The notes beneath the pieces were generated by a model, which was not told the DNA's origin, did no database searches, and worked only from the letters and a program-made list of their open reading frames with translations. From Strigamia acuminata (Eukaryota; Arthropoda; Chilopoda; Geophilomorpha; Linotaeniidae): a DNA stretch of 57,000 nt. Location of the stretch: NCBI GenBank assembly GCA_949358305.1, contig CASHSZ010000118.1:1-57000 (forward strand). The letters run 5' to 3'. Positions within the stretch are counted from its first letter, which is position 1; each line of letters opens with the position of its first letter. Shown piece by piece: positions 3,585 through 57,000 of the stretch. Position numbers and translations under genes: made by a program.

Positions 3585-3878
3585 TGTTGCGGTCTGTCAA
3601 CACCAAACAGCTAGGAATGGGGTCGGGGCTATTTGAATTTCCCGCTTCTAAAAACTCAAGTGATCGTATTGTTAAATTCGTACGAAAACCGCGCTGAGAA
3701 CACAAATCCGCACTGAAAACTATTGTTGAATGCATGGAACATTGATGGGAACACCGTTGATTAATATCCAATGGAGTGCTGAATCAATGGCTAATCCAGG
3801 GAAAGGCTTAACTACTCACAACACATTGAAAACTAAGGTTGAAAATAGAAAACACGGGAGTTAACAAAAAACAACTTG

Positions 3879-3884
3879 TTTATT
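3879..3884 (-). terminator. Polyadenylation signal AATAAA in element 1 LTR
   Basis: AATAAA reads on the minus strand about 295 bp before the LTR end; the 5' LTR copy is at 11635-11640. Elements 2 and 3 have AATAAA at a comparable place (43922, 50241, 56486), which makes it the likely 3' end signal of the retroelement transcript. Confidence 0.6.
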
Positions 3885-4376
3885 AAAAAGTTGGTTGAGA
3901 ACTGAATAAAATACACTGATTACATTGGTTCCTGAGGAACCGCACATGCGCAGTACCCAATACGGCACGCGCCAAGCCGATAGCGGCGAAATACAGATAC
4001 AAAAGAAACTCCGTTGTCATAGCAACGGAGGAAACGAAATCACAGCAAAGTTGTAGTTACATAAAAACTGCACGAATTAACGATTGTGATACACTAAAAT
4101 GATCACAAGAATACCAGGAATATTTAATCTAATCACAACAATAAGATCAGAAGAGTAAAACAGTGCAAACGGAACGAAAACAATGATCGTCAAGCAGACG
4201 ATCGAGACAGCCAATCAGCGTCAAGCAAAATGATGCAATCAAAACATTTGAATTCCGAACGGAATAAAAATGCAAAGAATACAGGTGAAAACACTTCGAA
4301 ATGAAATAGTAAATGCAGATTATAAGAATATAAAATACAAAAATAACGGTTACATTGTGTAATCGTCGCTTGGGAC

Positions 4377-4440
4377 AAACATGGCGACCGGCGAACATAA
4401 CAAAGGTATTGGATCAAACATGGCGTCCGGCGAACATTGC
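4377..4440 (-). promoter_or_regulatory. Duplicated ATGGCG box in U3 of element 1 (YY1-like)
   Basis: Two imperfect copies of caaacATGGCGnCCGGCGAAC lie 39 bp apart (ATGGCG at 4381 and 4420); the same pair is in the 5' LTR near 12146 and 12185. The core resembles the YY1/Pleiohomeotic site AANATGGCNNC. Duplicated boxes upstream of the polyadenylation signal suggest promoter or silencing elements. Function is inferred from the motif only. Confidence 0.4.
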
Positions 4441-5142
4441 AAAAGCGTCAAAACAATTCGGAATTGGAAAATAAAGCATTTAATGTAAATAACAAATAAA
4501 GTATCGAATAAAATACAAGAGTAATTATTAATTCTTATCACAAAATACTGAAAGAAAACACACAAGTTTAATAAATACGAAAATGTTGAACGAACCGAAC
4601 ATTCTCGGCTACGCTTTTACGGCAGCCGACAACGAACGTTAGAAACAACCGATCGAAGCATTTTGGGCAGTTCTAATGCATCCAGAAAGAAAGAACAGAC
4701 TTGAATTAGTCAGAAACAAATGTAAAAAGAAATCCAAATGAATTCTAAAGCACAAAACGAAAGGTTAGAAGACGGAAGCAAAAGTCCGCTAGGAACCGAA
4801 AAATGACGTATCGAGCATCGCAAATGTATGCCAGAAAACGAAGAAAACATTAGAACTGTACGCAATAAACACAAAATCAGGGAAAATTAATAGAAAGGTT
4901 CATAAATGCACTCAAAAAGACACGAATAAAATAATAGCAAGGTATTAACAGTACATTAAATCGAAAAGTGACAATAAAAATCAGTGAAAAACATTTTAAT
5001 AAGTCAAAATTCCTGTAAAGTGAAAAATATCAATTAATTATGAAAAATAAAACACTAAAGGAAAATTAAACAAATAAAAGCAATTAGTAATATTTATTGA
5101 AACAATCTCAGCACAACAATTCTTCCACGCTGTCTTGCAACA

Positions 5143-11340: not shown

Positions 11341-12907
11341 TGTTGCGGTCTGTCAACACCAAACAGCTAGGAATGGGGTCGGGGCTATTTGAATTTCCCG
11401 CTTCTAAAAACTCAAGTGATCGTATTGTTAAATTCGTACGAAAACCGCGCTGAGAACACAAATCCGCACTGAAAACTATTGTTGAATGCATGGAACATTG
11501 ATGGGAACACCGTTGATTAATATCCAATGGAGTGCTGAATCAATGGCTAATCCAGGGAAAGGCTTAACTACTCACAACACATTGAAAACTAAGGTTGAAA
11601 ATAGAAAACACGGGAGTTAACAAAAAACAACTTGTTTATTAAAAAGTTGGTTGAGAACTGAATAAAATACACTGATTACATTGGTTCCTGAGGAACCGCA
11701 CATGCGCAGTACCCAATACGGCACGCGCCAAGCCGATAGCGGCGAAATACAGATACAAAAGAAACTCCGTTGTCATAGCAACGGAGGAAACGAAATCACA
11801 GCAAAGTTGTAGTTACATAAAAACTGCACGAATTAACGATTGTGATACACTAAAATGATCACAAGAATACCAGGAATATTTAATCTAATCACAACAATAA
11901 GATCAGAAGAGTAAAACAGTGCAAACGGAACGAAAACAATGATCGTCAAGCAGACGATCGAGACAGCCAATCAGCGTCAAGCAAAATGATGCAATCAAAA
12001 CATTTGAATTCCGAACGGAATAAAAATGCAAAGATAGCAAAGAATACAGGTGAAAACACTTCGAAATGAAATAGTAAATGCAGATTATAAGAATATAAAA
12101 TACAAAAATAACGGTTACATTGTGTAATCGTCGCTTGGGACAAACATGGCGACCGGCGAACATAACAAAGGTATTGGATCAAACATGGCGTCCGGCGAAC
12201 ATTGCAAAAGCGTCAAAACAATTCGGAATTGGAAAATAAAGCACTTAATGTAAATAACAAATAAAGTATCGAATAAAATACAAGAGTAATTATTAATTCT
12301 TATCACAAAATACTGAAAGAAAACACACAAGTTTAATAAATACGAAAATGTTGAACGAACCGAACATTCTCGGCTACGCTTTTACGGCAGCCGACAACGA
12401 ACGTTAGAAACAACCGATCGAAGCATTTTGGGCAGTTCTAATGCATCCAGAAAGAAAGAACAGACTTGAATTAGTCAGAAACAAATGTAAAAAGAAATCC
12501 AAATGAATTCTAAAGCACAAAACGAAAGGTTAGAAGACGGAAGCAAAAGTCCGCTAGGAACCGAAAAATGACGTATCGAGCATCGCAAATGTATGCCAGA
12601 AAACGAAGAAAACATTAGAACTGTACGCAATAAACACAAAATCAGGGAAAATTAATAGAAAGGTTCATAAATGCACTCAAAAAGACACGAATAAAATAAT
12701 AGCAAGGTATTAACAGTACATTAAATCGAAAAGTGACAATAAAAATCAGTGAAAAACATTTTAATAAGTCAAAATTCCTGTAAAGTGAAAAATATCAATT
12801 AATTATGAAAAATAAAACACTAAAGGAAAATTAAACAAATAAAAGCAATTAGTAATATTTATTGAAACAATCTCAGCACAACAATTCTTCCACGCTGTCT
12901 TGCAACA
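11341..12907 (-). repeat. Element 1 5' LTR
   Basis: 1567 bp, the right-hand LTR. It equals the left LTR except for an extra 9-bp unit near 12033 and one substitution near 12243. It should contain the promoter of the element. AATAAA is at 11640-11635 and a donor-like GTGAGTAG at 11575-11568 on the minus strand. TATA and initiator elements are not clear. Confidence 0.96.
11568..11575 (-). promoter_or_regulatory. Conserved donor-like GTGAGTAG in element 1 LTR
   Basis: GTGAGTAG on the minus strand, 60 bp after the AATAAA signal. The identical octamer is in the LTRs of element 2 (43989-43996) and element 3 (56503-56510), also after AATAAA. It matches a 5' splice site; see the predicted acceptor at 10458. 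Confidence 0.4.
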
Positions 12908-39900: not shown

Positions 39901-42828
39901 CAGTTGACTTAGCACAAACACCACAAGACCAATGTCTCTGAATGTTCAGAAATAGTGTTTAAACCTTAGTAGAAGGCTCCAATGTAAGTTTTAGAAACAT
40001 CCAATCGATGATTTGGGCGAATAGACTTTTGATCTCATCACAGTTGACTTAGCACAAACACCACAAGACCAATGTCTCTGAACGTTCAGAAATAGTGTTT
40101 AAACCTTAGTAGAAGGCTCCAATGTAAGTTTTAGAAACATCCAACCAATGATTTGGGAGAATAAACTTTTGATCTCATCACAGTTGACTTAGCACAAACA
40201 CCACAAGACCAATGTCTCTGAATGTTCAGAAATAGTGTTTAAACCTTAGTAGAAGGCTCCAATGTAAGTTTTAGAAACATCTAACCAATGATTTGGGAGA
40301 ATAGACTTTGATCTCATCACAGTTGACTTAGCACAAACACCACAAAACCAATGTCTCTGAATGTTCAGAAATAGTGTTTAAACCTTAGTAGAAGGCTCCA
40401 ATGTAAGTTTTAGAAACATCCAACCGATGATTTGGGAGAATCGACTTTTGATCTCATCACAGTTGACTTAGCACAAACACCACAAGACCAATGTCTCTGA
40501 ATGTTCAGAAATAGTGTTTAAACCTTAGTAGAAGGCTCCAATGTAAGTTTTAGAAACATCCAACCAATGATTTGGGAGAATAGACTTTTGATCTCATCAC
40601 AGTTGACTTAGCACAAACACCACAAGACCAATGTCTCTGAACGTTCAGAAATAGTGTTTAAACCTTAGTAGAAGCCTTCAATATAAGTTTTAGCAACACC
40701 CAAGCATTAAATTTTGAAAAAAAAATTTTGAGCTCATTTCACATCGCAGTTGACTTAGCACAAACACCACAAGACCAATGTCTCTGAATGTTCAGAAATA
40801 GTGTTTAAACCTTAGTAGAAGGCTCCAATGTAAGTTTTAGAAACATCCAACCAATGATTTGGGAGAATAGACTTTTGATCTCATCACAGTTGACTTAGCA
40901 CAAACACCACAAGACCAATGTCTCTGAACGTTCAGAAATAGTGTTTAAACCTTAGTAGAAGGCTCCAATGTAAGTTTTAGAAACATCCAACCAATGATTT
41001 GGGAGAATAAACTTTTGATCTCATCACAGTTGACTTAGCACAAACACCACAAGACCAATGTCTCTGAATGTTCAGAAATAGTGTTTAAACCTTAGTAGAA
41101 GCCTTCAATATAAGTTTTAGCAACACCCAAGCATTAAATTTTGAAAAAAAAATTTTGAGCTCATTTCACATCGCAGTTGACTTAGCACAAACACCACAAG
41201 ACCAATGTCTCTGAATGTTCAGAAATAGTGTTTAAACCTTAGTAGAAGGCTCCAATGTAAGTTTTAGAAACATCCAACCAATGATTTGGGAGAATAGACT
41301 TTTGATCTCATCACAGTTGACTTAGCACAAACACCACAAGACCAATGTCTCTGAATGTTCAGAAATAGTGTTTAAACCTTAGTAGAAGGCTCCAATGTAA
41401 GTTTTAGAAACATTCAACCGATGATTTGGGAGAATAGACTTTTGATCTCATCACAGTTGACTTAGCACAAACACCACAAGACCAATGTCTCTGAATGTTC
41501 AGAAATAGTGTTTAAACCTTAGTAGAAGGCTCCAATGTAAGTTTTAGAAACATCCAATCGATGATTTGGGCGAATAGACTTTTGATCTCATCACAGTTGA
41601 CTTAGCACAAACACCACAAGACCAATGTCTCTGAACGTTCAGAAATAGTGTTTAAACCTTAGTAGAAGGCTCCAATGTAAGTTTTAGAAACATCCAACCA
41701 ATGATTTGGGAGAATAAACTTTTGATCTCATCACAGTTGACTTAGCACAAACACCACAAGACCAATGTCTCTGAATGTTCAGAAATAGTGTTTAAACCTT
41801 AGTAGAAGGCTCCAATGTAAGTTTTAGAAACATCTAACCAATGATTTGGGAGAATAGACTTTGATCTCATCACAGTTGACTTAGCACAAACACCACAAAA
41901 CCAATGTCTCTGAATGTTCAGAAATAGTGTTTAAACCTTAGTAGAAGGCTCCAATGTAAGTTTTAGAAACATCCAACCGATGATTTGGGAGAATCGACTT
42001 TTGATCTCATCACAGTTGACTTAGCACAAACACCACAAGACCAATGTCTCTGAATGTTCAGAAATAGTGTTTAAACCTTAGTAGAAGGCTCCAATGTAAG
42101 TTTTAGAAACATCCAACCAATGATTTGGGAGAATAGACTTTTGATCTCATCACAGTTGACTTAGCACAAACACCACAAGACCAATGTCTCTGAACGTTCA
42201 GAAATAGTGTTTAAACCTTAGTAGAAGCCTTCAATATAAGTTTTAGCAACACCCAAGCATTAAATTTTGAAAAAAAAATTTTGAGCTCATTTCACATCGC
42301 AGTTGACTTAGCACAAACACCACAAGACCAATGTCTCTGAATGTTCAGAAATAGTGTTTAAACCTTAGTAGAAGGCTCCAATGTAAGTTTTAGAAACATC
42401 CAACCAATGATTTGGGAGAATAGACTTTTGATCTCATCACAGTTGACTTAGCACAAACACCACAAGACCAATGTCTCTGAACGTTCAGAAATAGTGTTTA
42501 AACCTTAGTAGAAGGCTCCAATGTAAGTTTTAGAAACATCCAACCAATGATTTGGGAGAATAAACTTTTGATCTCATCACAGTTGACTTAGCACAAACAC
42601 CACAAGACCAATGTCTCTGAATGTTCAGAAATAGTGTTTAAACCTTAGTAGAAGCCTTCAATATAAGTTTTAGCAACACCCAAGCATTAAATTTTGAAAA
42701 AAAAATTTTGAGCTCATTTCACATCGCAGTTGACTTAGCACAAACACCACAAGACCAATGTCTCTGAATGTTCAGAAATAGTGTTTAAACCTTAGTAGAA
42801 GCCTTCAATATAAGTTTTAGCAACACCC
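12908..42828. repeat. Satellite array, central block (about 30 kb)
   Basis: Roughly 210 head-to-tail monomers of the 140-bp A and 147-bp B types, all in one orientation. It starts with the right-hand TGAC duplication of element 1 and ends with ACCC at the element 2 junction. B monomers recur every three to eleven monomers. Rare markers reveal copied segments: tcgaacc (20791, 25590), aatcgatg (21501, 26300, again after 36 kb), ggacaatcga (32821, 33808, 35362, after 37 kb), catctaacc (36471, 40279, 41831). There is no gene, RNA gene or other transposon in it. Confidence 0.97.
17490..26970. repeat. Tandem duplication of satellite, 4799-bp period
   Basis: Two adjacent copies, about 17.5-22.2 kb and 22.3-27.0 kb. 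Matching markers all differ by 4799 bp: the B-monomer aagcatta at 17821/22620, the T-deletion monomers at 18551/23350 and 19684/24483, the rare tcgaacc at 20791/25590 and aatcgatg at 21501/26300. Left and right limits are approximate, set where marker variants stop agreeing. Confidence 0.85.
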
Positions 42829-43921
42829 TGTTGCTAGCAACATAAAGGAAAGCTGCTAAACGTCTTAAAAATTAGTCATCTGGAATTATTAAAAAGGGTT
42901 TTTAATATTTATCTTAGATTGGGAATTTAATTAGACACTTATTTGAATATAAGTCTTCTTTGAGTTAGTTTGAGTGAATTTCTCAGTACTGGTTGATCTG
43001 ACCGGATAAATCTGGGAAGAAAAGAGTTCTTACATTAGTTATTTATCCACTTAGAATTTATTTTCTATCTTGTTTACCTGTGTTATGCATGTTTTGATGT
43101 TTCCAAGTGTTTTCCTGTTTCCAGTCCACTACTGTCAATGTAGTGACAAGGTGTAATGATGCTCTCAGACAGCAAAAGGGTACTAGAATGAGAAATGTAT
43201 GTTATTATCAGTTTTAAGCTGTTTCAATCAATTTCTGTTTGTTTTCTGTATATTACTAACCAATTAAGCGTTTTGTTAACTTAGATTGTGTGTAGCCTGT
43301 CTAGTGAGCTAATTTCAAGCCTTTTTATCTTCCTGCAAGTGATCTCTGTTTACATTGTCGGCCATTACTGTGGGAGTGGTCTACTTGTATCTGTAAAGAG
43401 AGGAGAAAATGTTTAATCCCAAAGAGTTTTTGTGGGTTCTGATTAATAATTAATCACTTAATTATTATGCAATGTAAAAGTGTTAAGTTTAAGATTTATC
43501 TGTGTTGATTTATAACTTAACTTCTGCACTTACTGTAAAGTTGCCAGCTCATTGGTCTAAAATGTCTTTACTTATTCTTTTCTCTATTTTATGAGTTGTT
43601 CAGTGTGTTTTAGAGTGAATAATTTAGTTCTCAATGAGCATTGTGTTTAGAGACTGTTGTTAATGTATACTTTTGCATTTAATGTCAAATACTTGCTGTT
43701 AGGCTTATGTGTTTTCAACTATTAACTTCTACGGTAGTTTTGTTGTGCCAGCATTACTTATTTCTCTTTACAAGCACTTAGAGACCTCTGTAACTTTAAG
43801 TGCAAGTGTCCTTATACAATGTGGAGATAGTTACACTTGTTGTTTCTTATTATTGTTAAAGTGTGACTTCTTTGTAAAATCCTCGTGATTCAATTGTAGT
43901 AGTGTTGTTAAGAATTTAGAG

Positions 43922-43927
43922 AATAAA
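43922..43927 (+). terminator. Polyadenylation signal AATAAA in element 2 LTR
   Basis: AATAAA in the 5' LTR, with its functional counterpart in the 3' LTR at 50241-50246. The position matches elements 1 and 3. Confidence 0.6.
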
Positions 43928-43988
43928 ATGGTTGCTTTTTATTTCTCTCCAAGTCTCATTTCTCTATACAACCAGAAAGCAATGTGCA

Positions 43989-43996
43989 GTGAGTAG
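43989..43996 (+). promoter_or_regulatory. Conserved donor-like GTGAGTAG in element 2 LTR
   Basis: Preceded by GCA, this is the best splice-donor match of the three elements. A matching acceptor-like pyrimidine tract ending TTCAG lies at 44872-44895, 112 bp before the ORF start. Splicing would skip the primer site and leader ORFs. Confidence 0.4.
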
Positions 43997-44186
43997 AAAA
44001 ATCCTCCTTCCTCCTCCTTGAACTCACCAGTGGCAGATCATCATGTGAAGCAGCAAGTTCAAGTCCAGTGTTTGCATTTCTTCAAGTCTTTGGCCAACTT
44101 CTGTGTATCAATTTTAGCCAAGCAGCAGTCAAGTATTGCCGCCCCTCCTTCTGGCCTGGTTGTCGCCTGCGACCTTGCCAGAAACA

Positions 44187-45007
44187 ATTTGGTACCGTGA
44201 ACCCAGGATTTCTTCCAGTTATCTCAGTGGACCTTCATGTGTGCTGCAAAATTCATCAGTGGGTTTTGTTCTCAAGCTGTGCAAAGCTTTTATGTGTAAA
44301 GTGCCATTGAAGTTGTGCCACTACAGTGAAGTGTATGCTCTCGTCCGCCTTTCACAGGCAAAAAAGTGGGTTTTTCAAGTTGGATTCTCAAATTGTCAAG
44401 ATGGTCAAGATGTTTTTCAACTTGGATCAAGCAAGGCTTCGAGAGTACGAGCGATCCTGCACGACAATCAATTCCAAACACAACGCAATGTACATCCTAC
44501 AAGAAGATTTGAAGAAATAATTATTAAGAATTATTATTTAAATAGAATAATATCCGAATTTGCTGCTGTAATTATTTCAAAAAGAGTTTTTGATTAGAAA
44601 CTGGTGTAGTTGGGGGGAGAAGAAGTTTAAGTCTTAACAGTTTGAATAAATTCTCGATTCCAGTTTGTGGAATTTAGAGAATATCCAGTGAATTAGTGAA
44701 TAATACCAAGCTTTAGTGTTGGTATCCCAATTTAAAACGAGTATCTAGTCAGAAACTCAATTGTGAAAATAAGAGAATTGTCAATTACCTTTAATTATTG
44801 AATTTTGGGGGTTAATTTGCCAATCCTTTTAACATCTCGTGTGTTTCAATCCTGTTAACAGCTTGTGGATATCCATCCTGTTTTTGTGTGTTCAGTAAAT
44901 CCTAGAGTGTAAAAGAATTAGACAATTTCTTGTTAACCAATTTAGTCAGTTAAGTTGAGTTTGAATCCTGAACTGATCCTTGAATTCTTCATTTCTCGGT
45001 GAGGATT
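44187..45007 (+). other. 5' leader of element 2
   Basis: 821 bp. It contains the primer-binding site (44190 onward), the shared motif AACACAACGC (44477-44486) and an acceptor-like tract ending at 44895. An open frame of up to 153 codons (44136-44597, start codon not ATG) crosses the LTR end and primer site and has no recognisable product. Confidence 0.8.
44190..44209 (+). other. Primer-binding site of element 2
   Basis: TGGTACCGTGAACCCAGGAT begins three bases after the LTR. It begins TGG, as the complement of a tRNA CCA end should, and element 3 has the same TGGTACCGTGA. The tRNA is not identified. Confidence 0.6.
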
Positions 45008-47848
45008 ATGGCTACATTATCCGCTGCTGATCTCGAGGAAAAGGAGGTCATTTGGAAAGCAAAGGCTCAAGGAGCCGAGGATCTGCTGGGATCTTCAGTC
45101 AACATTCTAGACGGAGGAGAGCTGGAAGCCATGCAAATAACGGTTGACCAGCAATTGAGTGATCTCGCCGACGAATTGAAAGCTCTTAAAGACGAGTCAA
45201 AAAGAGAGGACTATTTAGCGGGGCTTCAACGAATTGAAGACATTAGAACCAGAGTAAATTTATTGAAACAAAGAGCAAAAGTGTCTGGAAAAATGGCAGG
45301 GCAATTTGGTTCCCATCCGGGACAGAATTCCAGTTTAAACCAGACGTCCGCTTCATCTAGGAGAAACACGAGATTGCCGAAAACCGACATTGCCAAATTT
45401 AGTGGCGATGCAACTGAATATAGAGGTTTTGCGAATTTATTCGAATCAGCAGTTGATCAGAACACGGAGCTTTCGAACGTGGAAAAGCTTATATATCTGA
45501 GATCATGCTGCACTGGGGCTGCAGAATCCGCAATCAAGTCGTACCCAATAACTGATGACGCCTACCCATTAGCGAAAAACACATTGGAGAGTCTATTCGG
45601 TTCTGAAAACACGCAGAGAAATGCTATTTCAAAGATGATTAGGGAGTCGAAACCCGTTTTCGATCTCTACCCAATCGAGCCACTCAAAGCTCTATTCACG
45701 TCATTGGCATCTGCTGTCCGGACCATGGCGCAACTGTCTGTGTCAGTTGACACTACTGGAACGTACCTTATTCCAGAACTACTTAGAAAATTTCCACCGG
45801 AGATCTCCCAACGTTTTTACCGAAAGCATCAAGGAAAAGTTGATGATGTTAACGTTTTTCTGGACTTCGTAGCAACCGAGATACAACTGGCTGAATTGTC
45901 GGAAGAAAGCGTTCTCCTTAAGCGCGCTCATCTGAAGAAGTCAGAAAAATTTGAGAAAACTTCAAAGGAAACAAGAGAAAGACCAACTGGAACCATGTCC
46001 TCATTCGTGACTTCCGAGAATGGAAAATTGAGTATGAATTCCAAGTCAAATCCAAACCGCAAACCCGCCTGCGCTTATTGTGAGGGTGATCACGCACACG
46101 CAAATTGTGATGCGGATCTCGATGTACCAGCGAGGATCGAAATAGTGAAGAAGAAACGACTTTGTTTCAACTGCTTGAGATATAACCACACAGCCAAAGA
46201 ATGTACCGTGAAGTTTTGTTGTCGCTTGTGTGGTGGAAGACATCACACATCGATCTGCAACAAAAACAACAAAGAAAAAGCGATTACACCAAAAGAAGAA
46301 AACGTGTCTACTAATGTATCGCTTACCGAGTCGGTGGAGATTCAACTGATGGTCTTCACTGCTCTTTTTGTGAAGAAAAATGGAGACATGTACCCCGTCC
46401 GCGGATTATTAGATCCAGGAAGCCATCGCTCCTACGTCACGAAGAGACTAGTAAATAAATTCCGGATGCAAAAGATCGAGACACTACACACGATGACACA
46501 GTGTCTGCTCAACAAAAAGCCAGTTCCGACGACACATGATGTCTTTAGATTCGAACTACAATCAAGACACGGAACAAAAAAGACATCAATCCTTGCATTA
46601 GAAACCGACACACTCCCGAAAGTCAAAGGGATAATTGGAGCAGAAGCCATAAAGCAAGTCCAATCACTCGGACTTGAGATGGCTGAGATACATCCGTCAG
46701 AATCGGAAGACATTGACGTCTTATTAGGAAGCAACGCATGGTGGAAGATTTGTCAAGGTGGAAGCCGAAAAATCAACGACGAGTTGGGATTAATGGAGAC
46801 AATTTTTGGGTGGATTCTAAACGGTCGACTGAAACCAAACAACCCGCTTGAAGAAAACATGGCAGCGTGCAACATTTCTTGCATGGCGGTCGAGTCCAAA
46901 GAAGAAGTGATCTCAAATCAACCTGAAAATGACGAAAACAAAATAGTCCAATTAATTCCGAAATCACTGCCCAACATGAATGGCGAACCCGGTGTGAATA
47001 AACAGACAGACGTCACACCTTCTTGTTTTGCCGCGAGCCTCTCCAGTGGTCTGGAGAAAGAGGAACTGGACACCACCCTCCAAAAAACGAAAAAGTCGTT
47101 TAAGGATGGAGGATTGGTCAACAGAACTCCAAGCTCGGACATGAAGCCGGAATTACGAGGGCGAAATCAGTTAGAGTCAGGGAGAAAGAACGTCGAATTA
47201 CTTACAAACCAAGTGCCCAGTTTACCCAAATTGTGTGCAATCGTGAGATGGAGTGGAAACGTGATTCTGAATTTCTGGAAAAAGAAAATTGATTTGTCAA
47301 CCAATCAAAAGGGAATTCATCTCATCATTGGTCCAATGTATGCGGGAAAAACGACCAAGTTATTGAAGCTTTTAGAAAAGGAAGAGAAGACGTCGTCCCT
47401 GCTAATTAAACACTCCAATGACGATCGTTACAGTAAAACCGAAGTCGTGACCCACGACGGTCATCGACGAGAAGCAATTGCTACCAGTAGCCTAACCAAT
47501 GCTGTGGAAAAAACGAAATTAGTGAAGACAATCAGAATTGACGAAGGACAGTTTTTTCCCGACATTTTTACTTTTTCAAATGAAATGGCTGAGCAAAAGA
47601 AAAAGGTAATAGTCGCCGCATTAGACGTCGACTTCAAGAGTAAGCTTGTTAATCCGATCCGACCCATCCGCCAATCCGCGGATCGGATCGGATCGGATCG
47701 GATGCGGATCGTATCGAAATATCCGGCCGCCATTTTTTTGCGGATCGGTTCGGCGGTCCATCCGCACGGTCAATCCGCGGATGAGAATCCGCTGATCCGC
47801 GGATTGATCCGAGCCATCTGCACGTGCGACGTTTTCTTCGTTTTTTGA
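45008..47848 (+). CDS. Gag-protease-thymidine kinase polyprotein, interrupted by an insertion
   Basis: The first ATG of the frame is 45008; three codons upstream only GTG is found. Residues 1-300 are DUF1759-type Gag, similar along its length to element 1. Zinc knuckles follow at C355-C367, C386/C389/H394/C399 and C405-C417, then DUF1758-type protease with D469 in DPGS and the end motif at about 600 (TIFGWILNG, cf. TLFGWVLTG in element 1). In element 1 the RT follows; here a 155-residue unassigned linker leads to a type II thymidine kinase from about 769: Walker A GPMYAGKT (775-782), and IDEGQFFPDI with the catalytic-base glutamate E846 and the VAALD strand (869-873). At codon 878 a DNA transposon breaks the gene, and the frame runs 69 codons into it to a false stop at 47848. 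The kinase would convert thymidine to dTMP. No RT or integrase motif is seen. A recognised kinase and Gag in one frame without introns argue for capture of an mRNA copy. Confidence 0.9.
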   Translation: MATLSAADLEEKEVIWKAKAQGAEDLLGSSVNILDGGELEAMQITVDQQLSDLADELKALKDESKREDYLAGLQRIEDIRTRVNLLKQRAKVSGKMAGQFGSHPGQNSSLNQTSASSRRNTRLPKTDIAKFSGDATEYRGFANLFESAVDQNTELSNVEKLIYLRSCCTGAAESAIKSYPITDDAYPLAKNTLESLFGSENTQRNAISKMIRESKPVFDLYPIEPLKALFTSLASAVRTMAQLSVSVDTTGTYLIPELLRKFPPEISQRFYRKHQGKVDDVNVFLDFVATEIQLAELSEESVLLKRAHLKKSEKFEKTSKETRERPTGTMSSFVTSENGKLSMNSKSNPNRKPACAYCEGDHAHANCDADLDVPARIEIVKKKRLCFNCLRYNHTAKECTVKFCCRLCGGRHHTSICNKNNKEKAITPKEENVSTNVSLTESVEIQLMVFTALFVKKNGDMYPVRGLLDPGSHRSYVTKRLVNKFRMQKIETLHTMTQCLLNKKPVPTTHDVFRFELQSRHGTKKTSILALETDTLPKVKGIIGAEAIKQVQSLGLEMAEIHPSESEDIDVLLGSNAWWKICQGGSRKINDELGLMETIFGWILNGRLKPNNPLEENMAACNISCMAVESKEEVISNQPENDENKIVQLIPKSLPNMNGEPGVNKQTDVTPSCFAASLSSGLEKEELDTTLQKTKKSFKDGGLVNRTPSSDMKPELRGRNQLESGRKNVELLTNQVPSLPKLCAIVRWSGNVILNFWKKKIDLSTNQKGIHLIIGPMYAGKTTKLLKLLEKEEKTSSLLIKHSNDDRYSKTEVVTHDGHRREAIATSSLTNAVEKTKLVKTIRIDEGQFFPDIFTFSNEMAEQKKKVIVAALDVDFKSKLVNPIRPIRQSADRIGSDRMRIVSKYPAAIFLRIGSAVHPHGQSADENPLIRGLIRAICTCDVFFVF
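47633..47640. other. 8-bp target duplication of nested transposon, left copy (TTCAAGAG)
   Basis: TTCAAGAG ends exactly where the terminal inverted repeat begins; the identical octamer is at 48720-48727. Counting one copy only, the kinase frame is continuous from one side to the other. Confidence 0.95.
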
Positions 47849-47940
47849 TTAAAAACGAAGAAAGCGTTGATTCGTGAAGAAAACGTCGGACGTTTTCTTA
47901 GTTTTTTGATTAAAAACGAAGAAAGCGTTTTCACCAAATT

Positions 47941-48007
47941 TGCAGATTCACCAAATTTGCCCCGAATTCAATAGTTTTGAATTCGGGGCAAATTTGGTGA
48001 ATCTGCA
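47941..48007. repeat. 31-bp perfect hairpin in nested transposon
   Basis: Arms 47941-47971 and 47977-48007 are exact reverse complements around the loop TAGTT. A second copy with 25-bp arms (48440-48464, 48470-48494) has the loop AACTA, so it lies in opposite orientation. Both follow a common direct repeat containing aaaaacgaagaaagcgtttt. Confidence 0.93.
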
Positions 48008-48047
48008 CGTGGGACAAGATCAAGAATCTTTTATTTTATAACAATAA

Positions 48048-48086
48048 ATAACAGTATTAGGAATTTAGGATTCCTAATACTGTTAT
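48048..48086. repeat. 17-bp hairpin in nested transposon
   Basis: Arms 48048-48064 and 48070-48086 pair perfectly around the loop TTAGG. Confidence 0.9.
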
Positions 48087-48291
48087 AAAATTCAAAAGGA
48101 TTTTTATCCATTTCATTTTTTGCAATGAAATGAATAAAATTATATTGTTCTTTATTGATTGTTTTAAATCGTATAAGTTTTAATTGTATTTTTTTTTACA
48201 ATCGTGTGTCGTGTCTCGTGTGTTCGTGTCGTATCCAAGATTCTTTCTACCCAAATCGCCGCAAACTCGAATGAATGATCGTGATTCGATT

Positions 48292-48396
48292 CGTGAAGAA
48301 AACGTCTCACATTTTCTTGGTTTTAAAAAAAAAATGTGAGACGTTTTCTTCACGTATCACGAATATTATTCGTGAATCATGATACGTGAAGAAAAC
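48292..48396. repeat. Two overlapping, mutually exclusive hairpins in nested transposon
   Basis: A 24-bp arm pair (48292-48315 with 48331-48354) and a 17-bp pair (48343-48359 with 48380-48396) share bases 48343-48354, so only one can form at a time. Confidence 0.85.
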
Positions 48397-48439
48397 ATCG
48401 CACGTTTTCTTCGTTTTGATTAAAAACGAAGAAAGCGTT

Positions 48440-48494
48440 TTCACCAAATTTGCCCCGAATTCAAAACTATTGAATTCGGGGCAAATTTGGTGAA
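48440..48494. repeat. 25-bp perfect hairpin, inverted copy of the 47941 hairpin
   Basis: Arms 48440-48464 and 48470-48494, loop AACTA. It contains the same CCGAATTC-centred palindrome as 47941-48007. Confidence 0.92.
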
Positions 48495-48719
48495 TCTGAA
48501 TTGAATTAAAGTCTGGAAAAAATAAAAGCAAAAAAAGAATTAAATCCGCAAATCGATCCGACCTATCCGCGGATCGGATCGGATTGGACGAAGATTGATC
48601 CGGATTGTGCGGTTCATCCGCACGGATCGGATCGGATTGCTTTTTCGGCAATCCGCGAGATTCGGATCGGATGCGGATTACCCGTGGATCCGCACCGATC
48701 CGATCCGTTAACAAGCTTA

Positions 48720-49112
48720 TTCAAGAGGAAGCCATTTGATCAGATATCCGAGTTAGTTCCACTAGCCGAGTCTGTTGTGAAACTACAAGCAAAATGTTAT
48801 TTTTGCGGAGATAAAGCTGAATTTTCAAGACGAATTTCGCACGAAACCAGAGTCAAGATGATAGGAGGGATCGACAAATACAAACCAACCTGTCGAGTAT
48901 GTTTCTCAAAGCCCATGAAGTCTCTAGAGACGAAAAGGAAAATCATCAACGGAATTATTCGACTTAGTTGTATGATTGTCAACCGAAGAATACCTCCGTG
49001 GATACCAAATTTGATCCGTCAAAGAATCATGCCACCCAGAGTGAAATACAAAAAGGTGAAAGAAGTCTCCCAAATATTATCATCAAAGACCAGAAGTAAT
49101 CAAACTAAATGA
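48720..49112 (+). pseudogene. Thymidine kinase C-terminal part, separated by the nested transposon
   Basis: From the right target duplication the frame gives 130 codons to TGA at 49110-49112. It carries the type II thymidine kinase features missing upstream: KPF and LVPLAESVVKL, the zinc-binding cysteines as CX2C at codons 26/29 and CX2C at codons 58/61, and between them the lasso segment with IGGIDKY, which contacts thymidine in TK1 enzymes. About 68 further residues follow, rich in K and R (ending around KYKKVKEV), with no counterpart I recognise and no KEN degradation box. Phase agrees with the upstream ORF, so the uninterrupted polyprotein would be 1005 residues. An open frame starting in the transposon (48684) merges into this but lacks the kinase N-terminus. 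Confidence 0.9.
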
Positions 49113-49130
49113 TGGGTTGTTCGCACTTTC

Positions 49131-49147
49131 TTTTCGCCGGCAATCTA
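49131..49147 (+). other. Plus-strand priming region of element 2 (non-purine)
   Basis: A pyrimidine-rich run (ctttcttttc) followed by CGCCGGCAAT (49135-49144) and three bases before the 3' LTR. It is the same arrangement as in element 1 and unlike a normal polypurine tract. Confidence 0.6.
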
Positions 49148-50505
49148 TGTTGCTAGCAACATAAAGGAAAGCTGCTAAACGTCTTAAAAATTAGTCATCT
49201 GGAATTATTAAAAAGGGTTTTTAATATTTATCTTAGATTGGGAATTTAATTAGACACTTATTTGAATATAAGTCTTCTTTGAGTTAGTTTGAGTGAATTT
49301 CTCAGTACTGGTTGATCTGACCGGATAAATCTGGGAAGAAAAGAGTTCTTACATTAGTTATTTATCCACTTAGAATTTATTTTCTATCTTGTTTACCTGT
49401 GTTATGCATGTTTTGATGTTTCCAAGTGTTTTCCTGTTTCCAGTCCACTACTGTCAATGTAGTGACAAGGTGTAATGATGCTCTCAGACAGCAAAAGGGT
49501 ACTAGAATGAGAAATGTATGTTATTATCAGTTTTAAGCTGTTTCAATCAATTTCTGTTTGTTTTCTGTATATTACTAACCAATTAAGCGTTTTGTTAACT
49601 TAGATTGTGTGTAGCCTGTCTAGTGAGCTAATTTCAAGCCTTTTTATCTTCCTGCAAGTGATCTCTGTTTACATTGTCGGCCATTACTGTGGGAGTGGTC
49701 TACTTGTATCTGTAAAGAGAGGAGAAAATGTTTAATCCCAAAGAGTTTTTGTGGGTTCTGATTAATAATTAATCACTTAATTATTATGCAATGTAAAAGT
49801 GTTAAGTTTAAGATTTATCTGTGTTGATTTATAACTTAACTTCTGCACTTACTGTAAAGTTGCCAGCTCATTGGTCTAAAATGTCTTTACCTATTCTTTT
49901 CTCTATTTTATGAGTTGTTCAGTGTGTTTTAGAGTGAATAATTTAGTTCTCAATGAGCATTGTGTTTAGAGACTGTTGTTAATGTATACTTTTGCATTTA
50001 ATGTCAAATACTTGCTGTTAGGCTTATGTGTTTTCAACTATTAACTTCTACGGTAGTTTTGTTGTGCCAGCATTACTTATTTCTCTTTACAAGCACTTAG
50101 AGACCTCTGTAACTTTAAGTGCAAGTGTCCTTATACAATGTGGAGATAGTTACACTTGTTGTTTCTTATTATTGTTAAAGTGTGACTTCTTTGTAAAATC
50201 CTCGTGATTCAATTGTAGTAGTGTTGTTAAGAATTTAGAGAATAAAATGGTTGCTTTTTATTTCTCTCCAAGTCTCATTTCTCTATACAACCAGAAAGCA
50301 ATGTGCAGTGAGTAGAAAAATCCTCCTTCCTCCTCCTTGAACTCACCAGTGGCAGATCATCATGTGAAGCAGCAAGTTCAAGTCCAGTGTTTGCATTTCT
50401 TCAAGTCTTTGGCCAACTTCTGTGTATCAATTTTAGCCAAGCAGCAGTCAAGTATTGCCGCCCCTCCTTCTGGCCTGGTTGTCGCCTGCGACCTTGCCAG
50501 AAACA
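49148..50505 (+). repeat. Element 2 3' LTR
   Basis: 1358 bp, same length as the 5' LTR and identical except C at 49890 where the 5' copy has T. Polyadenylation signal AATAAA at 50241-50246. It is followed by ACCC, the second target-site copy, and the satellite resumes as ACCCAAGCAATAAAA. Confidence 0.96.
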
Positions 50506-53500
50506 ACCCAAGCAATAAAATTTGAAAAAAAAATTTTTAGCTTATTTCACATCGCAGTTGACTTAGCACAAACACCACAAGACTAATGTCTCTGAATGTT
50601 CAGAAATAGTGTTTAAACCTTAGTAGAAGGCTCCAATGTAAGTTTTAGAAACATCCAACCGATGATTTGGGAGAATAGACTTTTGATCTCATCACAGTTG
50701 ACTTAGCACAAACACCACAAAACCAATGTCTCTGAATGTTCAGAAATAGTGTTTAAACCTTAGTAGAAGGCTCCAATGTAAGTTTTAGAAACATCCAACC
50801 AATGATTTGGGAGAATAGACTTTTGATCTCATCACAGTTGACTTAGCACAAACACCACAAGACCAATGTCTCTGAATGTTCAGAAATAGTGTTTAAACCT
50901 TAGTAGAAGGCTCCAATGTAAGTTTTAGAAACATCCAACCAATGATTTGGGAGAATCGACTTTTGATCTCATCACAGTTGACTTAGCACAAACACCACAA
51001 GACCAATGTCTCTGAATGTTCAGAAATAGTGTTTAAATCTTAGTAGAAGGCTCCAATGTAAGTTTTAGAAACATCCAACCAATGATTTGGAAGAATAGAC
51101 TTTTGATCTCATCACAGTTGACTTAGCACAAACACCACAAGACCAATGTCTCTGAACGTTCAGAAATAGTGTTTAAACCTTAGTAGAAGCCTTCAATATA
51201 AGTTTTAGCAACACCCAAGCATTAAATTTTGAAAAAAAAATTTTGAGCTTATTTCACATCGCAGTTGACTTAGCACAAACACCACAAGACCAATGTCTCT
51301 GAATGTTCAGAAATAGTGTTTAAACCTTAGTAGAAGGCTCCAATGTAAGTTTTAGAAACATCCAACCGATGATTTGGGAGAATAGACTTTTGATCTCATC
51401 ACAGTTGACTTAGCACAAACACCACAAGACCAATGTCTCTGAATGTTCAGAAATAGTGTTTAAACCTTAGTAGAAGGCTCCAATGTAAGTTTTAGAAACA
51501 TCCAACCAATGATTTGGGAGAATCGACTTTTGATCTCATCACAGTTGACTTAGCACAAACACCACAAGACCAATGTCTCTGAATGTTCAGAAATAGTGTT
51601 TAAACCTTAGTAGAAGCCTTCAATGTAAGTTTTAGCAACATCCAAGCAATGATTTGGGAGAATAGACTTTTGATCTCATCACAGTTGACTTAGCACAAAC
51701 ACCACAAAACCAATGTCTCTGAATGTTCAGAAATAGTGTTTAAACCTTAGTAGAAGCCTTCAATATAAGTTTTAGCAACACCCAAGCATTAAATATTGAA
51801 AAAAAAATTTTGAGCTCATTTCACATCGCAGTTGACTTAGCACAAACACCACAAGACCAATGTCTCTGAATGTTCAGAAATAGTGTTTAAACCTTAGTAG
51901 AAGGCTCCAATGTAAGTTTTAGAAACATCCAACCAATGATTTGGGAGAATCGACTTTTGATCTCATCACAGTTGACTTAGCACAAACACCACAAGACCAA
52001 TGTCTCTGAATGTTCAGAAATAGTGTTTAAACCTTAGTAGAAGCCTTCAATGTAAGTTTTAGCAACATCCAAGCAATGATTTGGGAGAATAGACTTTTGA
52101 TCTCATCACAGTTGACTTAGCACAAACACCACAAAACCAATGTCTCTGAATGTTCAGAAATAGTGTTTAAACCTTAGTAGAAGCCTTCAATATAAGTTTT
52201 AGCAACACCCAAGCATTAAATATTGAAAAAAAAATTTTGAGCTCATTTCACATCGCAGTTGACTTAGCACAAACACCACAAGACCAATGTCTCTGAATGT
52301 TCAGAAATAGTGTTTAAACCTTAGTAGAAGGCTCCAATGTAAGTTTTAGAAACATCCAACCAATGATTTGGAAGAATAGACTTTTGATCTCATCACAGTT
52401 GACTTAGCACAAACACCACAAGACCAATGTCTCTGAACGTTCAGAAATAGTGTTTAAACCTTAGTAGAAGCCTTCAATATAAGTTTTAGCAACACCCAAG
52501 CATTAAATTTTGAAAAAAAAATTTTGAGCTTATTTCACATCGCAGTTGACTTAGCACAAACACCACAAGACTAATGTCTCTGAATGTTCAGAAATAGTGT
52601 TTAAACCTTAGTAGAAGGCTCCAATGTAAGTTTTAGAAACATCCAACCAATGATTTGGGAGAATAGACTTTTGATCTCATCACAGTTGACTTAGCACAAA
52701 CACCACAAGACCAATGTCTCTGAACGTTCAGAAATAGTGTTTAAACCTTAGTAGAAGGCTCCAATGTAAGTTTTAGAAACATCCAACCAATGATTTGGGA
52801 GAATAAACTTTTGATCTCATCACAGTTGACTTAGCACAAACACCACAAGACCAATGTCTCTGAATGTTCAGAAATAGTGTTTAAACCTTAGTAGAAGCCT
52901 TCAATATAAGTTTTAGCAACACCCAAGCATTAAATTTTGAAAAAAAAATTTTGAGCTCATTTCACATCGCAGTTGACTTAGCACAAACACCACAAGACCA
53001 ATGTCTCTGAATGTTCAGAAATAGTGTTTAAACCTTAGTAGAAGGCTCCAATGTAAGTTTTAGAAACATCCAACCAATGATTTGGGAGAATAGACTTTTG
53101 ATCTCATCACAGTTGACTTAGCACAAACACCACAAGTCCAATGTCTCTGAATGTTTAGAAATAGTGTTTAAACCTTAGTAGAAGCCTTCAATATGAGTTT
53201 TAGCAACACCCAAGCAATAAATTTTGAAAAAAAAATTTTGAGCTTATTTCACATCGCAGTTGACTTAGCACAAACACCACAAGACCAATGTCTCTGAATG
53301 TTCAGAAATAGTGTTTAAACCTTAGTAGAAGGCTCCAATGTAAGTTTTAGAAACATCCAACCGATGATTTGGGCGAATAGACTTTTGATCTCATCACAGT
53401 TGACTTAGCACAAACACCACAAGACCAATGTCTCTGAATGTTCAGAAATAGTGTTTAAACCTTAGTAGAAGGCTCCAATGTAAGTTTTAGAAACATTCAA

Positions 53501-55199
53501 CCGATGATTTGGGAGAATAGACTTTTGATCTCATCACAGTTGACTTAGCACAAACACCACAAGACCAATGTCTCTGAATGTTCAGAAATAGTGTTTAAAC
53601 CTTAGTAGAAGCCTTCAATATAAGTTTTAGCAACACCCAAGCATTAAATTTTGAAAAAAAAATTTTGAGCTCATTTCACATCGCAGTTGACTTAGCACAA
53701 ACACCACAAGACCAATGTCTCTGAATGTTCAGAAATAGTGTTTAAACCTTAGTAGAAGGCTCCAATGTAAGTTTTAGAAACATCCAACCAATGATTTGGG
53801 AGAATAGACTTTTGATCTCATCACAGTTGACTTAGCACAAACACCACAAGTCCAATGTCTCTGAATGTTTAGAAATAGTGTTTAAACCTTAGTAGAAGCC
53901 TTCAATATGAGTTTTAGCAACACCCAAGCAATAAATTTTGAAAAAAAAATTTTGAGCTTATTTCACATCGCAGTTGACTTAGCACAAACACCACAAGACC
54001 AATGTCTCTGAATGTTCAGAAATAGTGTTTAAACCTTAGTAGAAGGCTCCAATGTAAGTTTTAGAAACATCCAACCGATGATTTGGGCGAATAGACTTTT
54101 GATCTCATCACAGTTGACTTAGCACAAACACCACAAGACCAATGTCTCTGAATGTTCAGAAATAGTGTTTAAACCTTAGTAGAAGGCTCCAATGTAAGTT
54201 TTAGAAACATTCAACCGATGATTTGGGAGAATAGACTTTTGATCTCATCACAGTTGACTTAGCACAAACACCACAAGACCAATGTCTCTGAATGTTCAGA
54301 AATAGTGTTTAAACCTTAGTAGAAGGCTCCAATGTAAGTTTTAGAAACATTCAACCGATGATTTGGGAGAATAGACTTTTGATCTCATCACAGTTGACTT
54401 AGCACAAACACCACAAGACCAATGTCTCTGAATGTTCAGAAATAGTGTTTAAACCTTAGTAGAAGGCTCCAATGTAAGTTTTAGAAACATCCAACCAATG
54501 ATTTGGAAGAATAGACTTTTGATCTCATCACTGTTGACTTAGCACAAACACCACAAGACCAATGTCTCTGAATGTTCAGAAATAGTGTTTAAACCTTAGT
54601 AGAAGGCTCCAATGTAAGTTTTAGAAACATCTAACCAATGATTTGGGAGAATAGACTTTGATCTCATCACAGTTGACTTAGCACAAACACCACAAGACCA
54701 ATGTCTCTGAATGTTCAGAAATAGTGTTTAAACCTTAGTAGAAGCCTTCAATGTAAGTTTTAGCAACATCCAAGCAATGATTTGGGAGAATAGACTTTTG
54801 ATCTCATCACAGTTGACTTAGCACAAACACCACAAGACCAATGTCTCTGAACGTTCAGAAATAGTGTTTAAACCTTAGTAGAAGCCTTCAATATAAGTTT
54901 TAGCAACACCCAAGCATTAAATTTTGAAAAAAAAATTTTGAGCTCATTTCACATCGCAGTTGACTTAGCACAAACACCACAAGACCAATGTCTCTGAATG
55001 TTCAGAAATAGTGTTTAAACCTTAGTAGAAGGCTCCAATGTAAGTTTTAGAAACATCCAACCAATGATTTGGGAGAATAGACTTTTGATCTCATCACAGT
55101 TGACTTAGCACAAACACCACAAGTCCAATGTCTCTGAATGTTTAGAAATAGTGTTTAAACCTTAGTAGAAGCCTTCAATATAAGTTTTAGCAACACCGA
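50506..55199. repeat. Satellite array, right block
   Basis: About 33 A and B monomers, same orientation as the other blocks. Local markers show short higher-order units: the variant aaatattg recurs at 51791 and 52218 (427 bp, three monomers) and atatgagttt at 53191 and 53905 (714 bp, five monomers). The first B monomer has a changed A/T-tract (aaaatttg...tttttagc). It ends at element 3. Confidence 0.97.
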
Positions 55200-55496
55200 T
55201 GTTGCGAGCAAGAACGCAACAAAAAGGATCTGGAGATTTCACGTTGTTCATCTTCTGAAAGAAAGAAAAGGCTTTTTAATTTTGTTGTCAAGTTTAGATA
55301 GATTTTTAACACATATCTGACATGCCCAGTTGGTTTGCCGCTTTGTTGTCACGATCCTGGTAGTTCAAGAGGGTTGTCACTTCGCCTGCCACACCTGGAA
55401 TGTTTGAAAGTTGTGTTTTTAGTCTTTTGTAATTAATTTATGTGTCTTTTTCACGTTTCTGAGTTATTTCTAGTATTTGTAAGTTCTCTCCTGTTT

Positions 55497-55562
55497 CCAG
55501 TTCACTTGCGAAGGAGATAGGCGTGCATCGGCAAGATGGCCGCCATAGCGCAAGTGAACTGG
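55497..55562. promoter_or_regulatory. Inverted repeat enclosing a YY1-like site in element 3 LTR
   Basis: Arms CCAGTTCACTTGCG (55497-55510) and CGCAAGTGAACTGG (55549-55562) are exact reverse complements. The 38-bp interior contains AAGATGGCCGCCAT (55533-55546), a close match to the YY1 consensus, itself nearly palindromic. The left arm overlaps the CTGTTTCCAGT string shared with element 2. Confidence 0.55.
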
Positions 55563-55908
55563 GAGATGGGAAGAACCTGAAATAAGCACAATTGTAGTTT
55601 TTGGTGCTTGTGATTTAATTTATACTAACTTGTATTGGTGTTTAAGGTAGTCCACAGGTGTCTTGGGTCGCTGGATGGGCGTTGGACATCGTTTGTGAGC
55701 GTTTGCGAGCGTCGGGCGTGAGCGTACGCCTTGCGACGCCTCTCGTGGTCGTGTGGGTCCTGCAAATGAGTTGAATTGGTCGGGTTTCAATGCCCAAGCA
55801 CTGGGAAAGCTGTACTGACCGTTCTAAGACGAAGATCCATCGTTGAGAAGGCCTGTGAGTCGCTCGCGACCTTGTTTGGCTCCATTCACGTCATTTTAGC
55901 AGTTGCAT

Positions 55909-55924
55909 GGTCGCCATCTTGGAT
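55909..55924 (+). promoter_or_regulatory. Second YY1-like site in element 3 LTR
   Basis: GGTCGCCATCTTGGAT, identical over 16 bases and in the same element orientation to a site in the element 1 leader (11115-11100, minus strand). CCATCTTGG is the reverse complement of the YY1 core. Confidence 0.45.
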
Positions 55925-56485
55925 TTGGTGCTGCACTGTTGCCCTGTTATTATTTCTTTTGGGGTTTTGAGGAGACCTGGACATAGGGAATATTTACTAG
56001 TTATTGTTTGTATAAATTACCAATATTAAGGGTTGTTAATCTAAGCTTTTACCTTTGTTATTGTATGGTTGTTACGGGTTAAGGTTTGTGACACTTTGCG
56101 CCCTCTTTTGGTGGCAATTGGGGTTTGGGCTCAGCATTGTGTTTTGAGTGCAGTTAATGTTAGTTTTAGCCTTTGAATTATCTGTTAAGTTTAAGTGAAG
56201 TGCTGTTTGCACAGGTCATACTGTTTTCAAGGTGTTAGGTTAAGTTTTGCCTTTATTTATGTTAAGTTTGACATCTGTTGTCTATATACGGAAACCTTGT
56301 TGGCACTATTGTTATTATTCAAATCTGTATTGTTTGGTCACTGACATTTATTGTAATCAGGTGACCAGTTGTTAAGAGTAGGTTGCTAAAGAAGCAACTC
56401 AGTTGTTATCAGTTGTTAAGTATTAAAGCCAGTTGATGTTTTTCCTCCTTCTTTGGATAAATTATTCCTGGGTTTATTTTACTTC

Positions 56486-56491
56486 AATAAA
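56486..56491 (+). terminator. Polyadenylation signal AATAAA in element 3 LTR
   Basis: AATAAA about 280 bp before the LTR end, followed by GTGAGTAG at 56503-56510, the same order as in the other two elements. Confidence 0.55.
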
Positions 56492-56782
56492 CAGGATGAC
56501 TTGTGAGTAGAGAGCTTTGCCTGCTCTCCTCCTCCCTGGGAGCACAGAATTTCTACCCAGCAGCTAAAGAGGTTTTGCCAATCACTTCATCTAAATGCAG
56601 TTAGGCCTAGTTTCATGCAGTCAGGCCTAATCCTTCTTCAAGTTAGGCTTGGGCTCAGAGAAAGGATTTCAGCTTGTTTCATCAACCACTATACAGTCTC
56701 GGGCGGTTTCCAGAGTTTGGTGACCAATTCGCCAGTCCTCCCCTGTGAGATCCAAGGTTGTTTGCTACAGGGAGCTGTTTTT

Positions 56783-56802
56783 TGGTACCGTGATTCCAGG
56801 AT
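56783..56802 (+). other. Primer-binding site of element 3
   Basis: TGGTACCGTGATTCCAGGAT, matching the element 2 site except for two or three central bases. A tRNA cannot be named from it. Confidence 0.55.
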
Positions 56803-57000
56803 TTCGTGCACGTGTGTACAGCGCGCATGGAAAAGAGGTCATTTGGATGTTCAGCAAGTGATTCAAGTGGGTTGGTGCGTGCCAGTTGGTTCGTTTGTAC
56901 GGCTGGTTCCGTGAGCGGCCGGCATCAAGTGCGCACGCCAGAGAGTCACGTGAGAGCGGCCATTGACGTCCTGAGTCTGCCAAGTCAAACACAACGCAAT

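Follow-up and report, generated by a model that had tools for sequence, protein, structure and literature searches.

What is a thymidine kinase (TK) doing between the long terminal repeats (LTRs) of a retrotransposon? The question is raised by a 57,000-nt stretch of the Strigamia acuminata genome (contig CASHSZ010000118.1, positions 1 to 57,000; hereinafter, the window), where the Gag-protease frame of a young BEL/Pao-type element runs directly into a kinase domain. Among at least 120 listed matches (7999 candidates scored), COX1 from the mitochondrial contig of this genome comes closest to the geophilomorph centipede Mecistocephalus marmoratus (86%), followed by horseshoe crabs and the centipede Bothropolys (84%), so that a geophilomorph host is likely; the nematode spliced leader yielded no match, and neither did its controls. 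It is near certain that we deal with an LTR element whose kinase is maintained by selection. As to its role, we assign a probability of roughly 60% to the reading that this is a non-autonomous BEL/Pao lineage with a TK1-type kinase behind Gag-protease, the kinase supplying dTMP for reverse transcription.

The kinase of the window copy is divided between two open reading frames (ORFs), 44999..47848 (first ATG at 45008) and 48684..49112, the end of the former falling inside a nested insertion. Both match the Pfam TK profile PF00265 (the first at residues 773–897, E-value 2.5e-31, 109.3 bits; the second with 4.5e-19, 69.4 bits; cut-off 20.6), and relatives from families A and B, the latter including the window element, match it with 4e-55 and 2.6e-54, respectively. 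GPMYAGKT, DEGQFF and VAALD are found at residues 778, 848 and 872 of the first ORF, two CX2C pairs and the IGGIDKY lasso in the second; the in-frame fusion and these hallmark motifs, proposed in a first-pass annotation of the window, have thus been located. An intact family-B kinase aligns with human cytosolic TK1 (2wvj), its best relative of solved structure, with E-value 7.3e-43. Among 34 fetched kinases (12 of family A and 22 of family B), both zinc cysteine pairs are kept in all, the P-loop is GPMFSGKT in all 12 family-A and GPMYAGKT in 20 family-B rows, and the DEGQ motif and the lasso are kept in nearly all copies of both families. Based on the profile, P-loop, DEGQ motif, zinc cysteines and lasso, the enzyme is predicted to be a TK1-type (type II) thymidine kinase. 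The tail at its C-terminus is specific to the element and similar between A and B. The KEN motif, which in TK1 marks the enzyme for removal once mitosis is over, is not seen in the examined region of the 34 kinases. Upstream of the kinase, the protease motif DPGS is present; Pfam protease models score below the cut-off in the family-A relative and yield no match at E 0.01 in the window and family-B frames. No dUTPase match at E 0.01 is found in the TK frames scanned, and an Rfam scan of four loci gave no match.

The element is bounded by LTRs with one mismatch per 1358 bp (99.93% identity; program limits 42829–44187 and 49148–50506) and by an ACCC duplication on both sides, and the frame stops at 49112, 35 bp ahead of the 3' LTR. 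Both these limits and a nested transposon splitting the kinase had been suggested previously. The latter measures 1079 bp and has inverted ends of 12 bp (TAAGCTTGTTAA/TTAACAAGCTTA); its 8-bp target duplication suggests a hAT-type element. It breaks the window copy's own kinase, whose C-terminal part shares 98% identity with the intact family-B query. Numerous direct and inverted repeats are seen inside the insertion (47641–48719), as well as a minus-strand ORF of 135 aa (48307..48714).

The window copy is not solitary. In the 237 Mb of the genome searched, the Pfam TK profile produced 205 candidates, of which 150 were scored, all of them above the cut-off; sorted by hand using frame length and score, they comprise families A (41), B (51), C (5), D (13) and E (40). 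The search with the family-B kinase, in which 150 of 240 candidates were scored, so that place counts are a lower bound, yielded at least 99 places including the window (45 A and 54 B), which are not equivalent to 99 insertions, as places on satellite contigs may be copies of one insertion. One A piece (C9:1046475) was left uncounted, as it may be the front half of the place C9:1038317. By hand count, the whole Gag-protease-TK frame is open at 84 of the 99 places, 37 of family A (995 or 1002 aa) and 47 of family B (1009 or 1013 aa), which rules out an assembly join, a single odd copy or chance. The TK elements are clustered (contigs C1 beyond 64 Mb, C5 at 12–15.5 Mb, C8 at 6.8–7.5 Mb, C9 below 1.1 Mb, C13 beyond 7.9 Mb, and small contigs), and satellite is present in six of 14 fetched A or B loci of at least 2 kb.

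The kinase and the LTRs behave as one mobile unit. Of 122 candidates for the family-B LTR, 40 were scored and paired with TK places by eye, and 34 of these form 17 pairs at TK-B places. The spacing within pairs is 5.2 kb, or 6.3 kb for the window element, and agrees with the size of the TK frame. Five of the six single matches directly adjoin a TK-B copy, and the sixth, C8:7127809, lies about 5 kb upstream of one. The primer binding site (PBS) TGGTACCGTGAMCCAAGGATTT, with at most one mismatch, occurs at 91 sites genome-wide, compared to none for the reversed control. Downstream of 75 sites a TK is found at 2.5–4.5 kb, with a few near-fixed distances between 3.1 and 4.0 kb; at 16 sites a TK is missing at this distance, and no PBS is listed for 24 of the 99 TK places. 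Three of the 16 were read: L049 is a BEL element bearing pol, L051 has no clear frame, and L050 contains interrupted family-A leader pieces, with no kinase found in the 6 kb read there. Five TK elements with ends resolved by eye have five different 4-bp duplications (ACCC, ACAG, CCTT, AATC and TTTG) and therefore represent five separate insertions, with zero or one base difference between the LTRs of each pair. The fetched elements L010 and L012 were left out of these five; L010 belongs to a tandem pair and shows 97.4% identity between its LTRs.

The kinase is under purifying selection. Its constraint is somewhat weaker than that of the protease, far stronger than that of the linker, and close to that of the proteins native to the element. 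Pairwise Nei-Gojobori estimates between subfamilies A and A2 (L009 and L002) are dN 0.106, dS 0.996, ratio 0.11 for the TK; dN 0.097, dS 1.37, ratio 0.07 for the protease; and dN 0.24, dS 0.54, ratio 0.44 for the linker. The kinases of B and B2 (L013 and L045) differ by dN 0.051 and dS 0.244 (ratio 0.21). Between A and B, synonymous sites are saturated (pS about 0.76), and dN is 0.36 for the TK, 0.35 for DUF1759, 0.27 for the protease and 0.65 for the linker. Mean pairwise dN and dS within families are 0.029 and 0.20 for A (12 rows, mostly due to L002) and 0.018 and 0.088 for B (20 rows). Rows L046 and L047 of family B and L025 of family D are absent from these estimates because of the P-loop motif filter, and family-B row L044 was cut at an internal stop. 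The first-pass annotation had proposed a genome search for Gag-TK copies and dN/dS estimates as checks; with at least 99 places, 84 of them with the whole frame, and ratios of 0.11–0.21, the kinase is neither unique, nor an assembly join, nor a host-like sequence free of selection.

The assignment to BEL/Pao retrotransposons stands in part: the LTRs and the DUF1759 Gag region are in place, but reverse transcriptase (RT), RNase H and integrase are missing, which had not been mentioned before. No domain of these three types is found by Pfam in three TK frames scanned; full-length frames stop after the kinase, and no A or B frame exceeds 1022 aa in either genome search (the longer TK frames, with 1118 aa and 1999 aa, are from family D and cross stretches reading N). 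Like BEL/Pao (Belpaoviridae), the TK elements have DUF1759 Gag, zinc knuckles, a protease motif, TG...CA LTRs and 4-bp duplications; unlike them, they have a TK1-type kinase where pol would be. They are a non-autonomous lineage related to BEL/Pao and not a full member of it, and, as they lack pol, depend on a helper and must be mobilised in trans.

Possible helpers are plentiful: all 150 scored Peptidase_A17 matches, out of 1068 candidates, are above the cut-off; these autonomous BEL elements are mostly outside the TK-element blocks. One of them is in the window, with LTRs at 3585–5142 and 11341–12907, and is surrounded by the same 140-bp satellite, which fills most of the window (1–42700 and 50540–57000) apart from the two LTR elements. 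It is possibly of the helper type, sharing with the TK elements a 4-bp duplication, the TGTT start and CGGCAAT ahead of the 3' LTR (the latter in the window element and family A alike), and copies of its LTR family are present on several TK-element contigs (40 of 658 candidates scored). The PBS of L049 (C5:13093100–13099100), the BEL element bearing pol, is one base off that of the TK elements; the end of its Gag frame matches a copia-type Gag (Retrotran_gag_2, 4.1e-13). No pol-bearing element with the same LTR as the TK elements has been seen, the interiors of the 17 family-B LTR pairs being unread. Gag-protease identity is 53% between A and B, 36–38% between these and two autonomous BEL elements, and 45% between the latter two; the TK lineage is therefore an old one and did not arise by recent deletion from either of them. 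In a protein search with Gag-protease-TK (7991 candidates scored), all seven matches have Peptidase_A17, and none has a precomputed TK domain. Taken with the selection data, these findings describe a BEL lineage that depends on helpers and in which a thymidine kinase has long been retained.

Table 1. Features of the window and kinase loci of other families
Feature	Position	Strand	Basis or remark
LTR element of TK family B	42829-50505	+	Young, BEL/Pao type
5' target site duplication ACCC	42825..42828	.	By eye from sequence
5' LTR, TGTTGC...AAACA, 1358 bp	42829..44186	+	Repeat comparison and TG...CA ends
Primer binding site TGGTACCGTGAACCCAGGATTT	44190..44211	+	One base different from search pattern
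Gag-protease-TK frame up to nested insertion	45008..47640	+	ORF list
DUF1759, BEL/Pao Gag region	45398..45823	+	Pfam 1.8e-17, residues 134-275
Three zinc-knuckle-like motifs, from residues 358, 389, 408	46070..46258	+	Motif reading
Aspartic protease active-site motif DPGS, residue 472	46412..46423	+	Motif reading
TK1-type thymidine kinase (predicted), N-terminal part	47315..47640	+	Pfam; P-loop 47330-47353, DEGQFF 47540-47557
Left copy of 8-bp duplication TTCAAGAG	47633..47640	.	Sequence reading
Nested hAT-like non-autonomous transposon, 1079 bp	47641..48719	.	Inverted ends, 8-bp duplication
Right copy of 8-bp duplication TTCAAGAG	48720..48727	.	Sequence reading
Kinase C-terminal part to stop (two CX2C pairs, IGGIDKY lasso, element-specific tail)	48720..49112	+	Pfam 4.5e-19
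Pre-LTR motif TTTCTTTTCGCCGGCAATCTA	49127..49147	+	Motif reading
3' LTR	49148..50505	+	Repeat comparison, genome LTR search
3' target site duplication ACCC	50506..50509	.	By eye from sequence
Autonomous-type BEL polyprotein, 1744 aa	5196..10430	-	Contains Gag, Peptidase_A17 and an integrase zinc domain; RT and protease profiles do not reach the cut-off
Family-C kinase loci	C3:1819005, C5:11274300, C5:11757466, C13:7714048, C13:1193181		L014, L015, L026 among fetched
Family-E loci fetched	L021-L023, L055, L056

The kinase is distinct from the host gene. Host TK1 is a separate, intron-bearing gene on contig C9 (C9:8319021); with a spider TK1 as the query, its exon is 69% identical, compared to 38–52% for the other 149 scored places. 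A tree was built from 54 kinases selected by hand (rows from outside the genome picked from 120 listed proteins). In it, four LTR kinases form one clade (100/99) and families C, D and E a second (98/87), the eight together making up a larger clade (99/96). Host TK1 is placed apart from this, in a group of 22 rows (97/88) including 12 of the 13 named animal TK1s that are not from nematodes, with Oikopleura and three nematode rows outside it. An earlier 51-row tree, with no host or viral rows, had the same element groups (99/98, 97/87 and 97/95). The tree, also among the checks proposed in the first-pass annotation, sets the element TKs apart from host TK1, and, as the A and B kinases lie between LTRs, in frame with Gag-protease and in separate insertions, the kinase is indeed element cargo and not a neighbouring host gene. 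Recent capture of the host gene is ruled out by the introns of host TK1 and its grouping with animal TK1s. A clade joining all element TKs with host TK1 is disfavoured, weakly given the long branches (p-AU 0.02); because of these branches, the place of the element clade among eukaryotic TK1s is unsure. Eight TK loci in viral contigs, five of which entered the tree, are 30–36% identical to the family-E query row and are more distant relatives, and of 43 phage records the five listed are at 30–34%; no close DNA-virus or phage source is seen among these.

How might an element without pol profit from a kinase? Retroviruses in resting cells are limited by nucleotide supply, a host restriction point. 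The element RNA would be packaged by its own Gag or that of a helper, and RT and integrase of an autonomous BEL of the same genome would reverse transcribe and integrate it. The kinase would convert thymidine to dTMP, so that cDNA synthesis would not be limited by dTTP where host TK1 is low. Being fused to Gag, the enzyme would be carried into the particle; free of cell-cycle control, it would supply dTMP, possibly inside the particle.

Alternatively, the kinase may work outside the particle, raising dTTP in the whole cell or aiding the germ cell, with the Gag fusion being only an expression route. This is rather doubtful but retains some weight: families C, D and E have stand-alone TK ORFs, and D and E kinases are constrained relative to each other (dN 0.129, dS 1.04), so the enzyme seems to be useful without Gag. 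On the other hand, the kinase ends the Gag-protease frame at the 84 places mentioned above, and this arrangement has persisted beyond the time depth of synonymous sites between A and B.

Several observations weigh against the reading that a helper-dependent element uses its kinase for dTMP supply. In two of the 22 family-B kinases, L046 and L047, the frame is open, but the P-loop is GLMYAGKT; a stop occurs within the examined part of two of the 22; family A has ALNGD at the position of ALDG in TK1; and the C-terminal tail is weakly conserved between A and A2 (dN 0.36, dS 0.996, ratio 0.36). Some of the places on satellite contigs may have arisen by segmental duplication. The primer site of the autonomous BEL in the window differs from that of the TK elements, and no LTR pair has been found for L049 in the stretches read. 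Finally, the constraint may be due to a role different from dTMP supply. One such role is that of a nucleotide- or zinc-binding assembly module devoid of kinase activity, which would fit the changed ALD position of family A and the two altered P-loops of family B; we consider it unlikely, given that P-loop, DEGQ and lasso are conserved in nearly all fetched A and B copies. A passenger kinase, acquired by chance, copied along and open merely since the copies are young, as the nearly identical LTR pairs of the five resolved elements would allow, is highly improbable given dN/dS of 0.11 to 0.21 between subfamilies, far below 0.44 of the linker, zinc pairs in 34 of 34 and intact P-loops in 32 of 34 fetched kinases.

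Related systems are known. TR-GAG elements of plants are non-autonomous LTR elements that encode Gag, have no pol and depend on others; unlike these, TK elements add a protease motif and a kinase, so that Gag is not the sole coding region. Cytosolic TK1 and DNA-virus TKs are of the same family and have the same motifs, but the element kinase is fused to Gag-protease, and KEN is not seen in the region examined. dUTPase has a fold and a reaction different from those of thymidine kinase. As cargo of LTR elements it has been described in bdelloid Juno, Vesta and TelKA and in planarian giant elements, in the main texts of which studies the words "thymidine" and "kinase" are absent (PMC5408684, PMC6431247). 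According to the same texts, retroviruses and LTR elements with dUTPase likewise encode a nucleotide-metabolism enzyme in the polyprotein behind the protease; there, dUTPase is placed between protease and RT. The main text of the 2011 survey of BEL/Pao in metazoan genomes contains neither "kinase" nor "non-autonomous" (PMC3118150). In agreement with the first-pass annotation, which knew of no such element, no LTR element with a thymidine kinase has been found in titles and abstract starts of the open PMC library (Repbase being outside this search).

The three further repeat families, C, D and E, have related stand-alone TK ORFs. In family C, a two-exon BAF gene (PF02961) is located just upstream of all five kinases, starting about 0.4–0.6 kb before the kinase domain. 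A genome search for BAF, in which all 15 candidates were scored, identified six loci (12 matches); C1:9509485, likely the host gene, is the sole one of them without a listed TK adjoining. BAF (barrier-to-autointegration factor) and TK are both relevant to retroelement cDNA. The family-E kinase is a 190-aa ORF, and the three copies read are located in large modular repeats; no other Pfam domains were found at E 0.01 on both strands of L021 or, on the plus strand, in three L055 frames and one L056 frame. Family D resides in a different large repeat (L016–L020, L024, L025, L028); L025 has an altered P-loop, and L019 has, besides TK, one match above the cut-off, to the Ctr copper transporter (1.2e-6), perhaps due to low complexity.

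Tentatively, these observations may be united by a TK gene pool, separate from host TK1, that is shared by mobile or repeated elements of this genome and moves from one element type to another; it would comprise the two LTR families with the Gag fusion, two families of large repeats and the BAF-TK pair. The LTR lineage would then be a metabolic satellite, borrowing RT and integrase from autonomous BEL elements and providing dTMP where reverse transcription takes place, as payment or for its own benefit.

Element surveys that classify by pol domains can miss cargo such as this kinase. If the proposed role is true, the TK elements would provide a natural test of whether dTTP limits retrotransposition, and would represent a new kind of labour division between helper and dependent elements.

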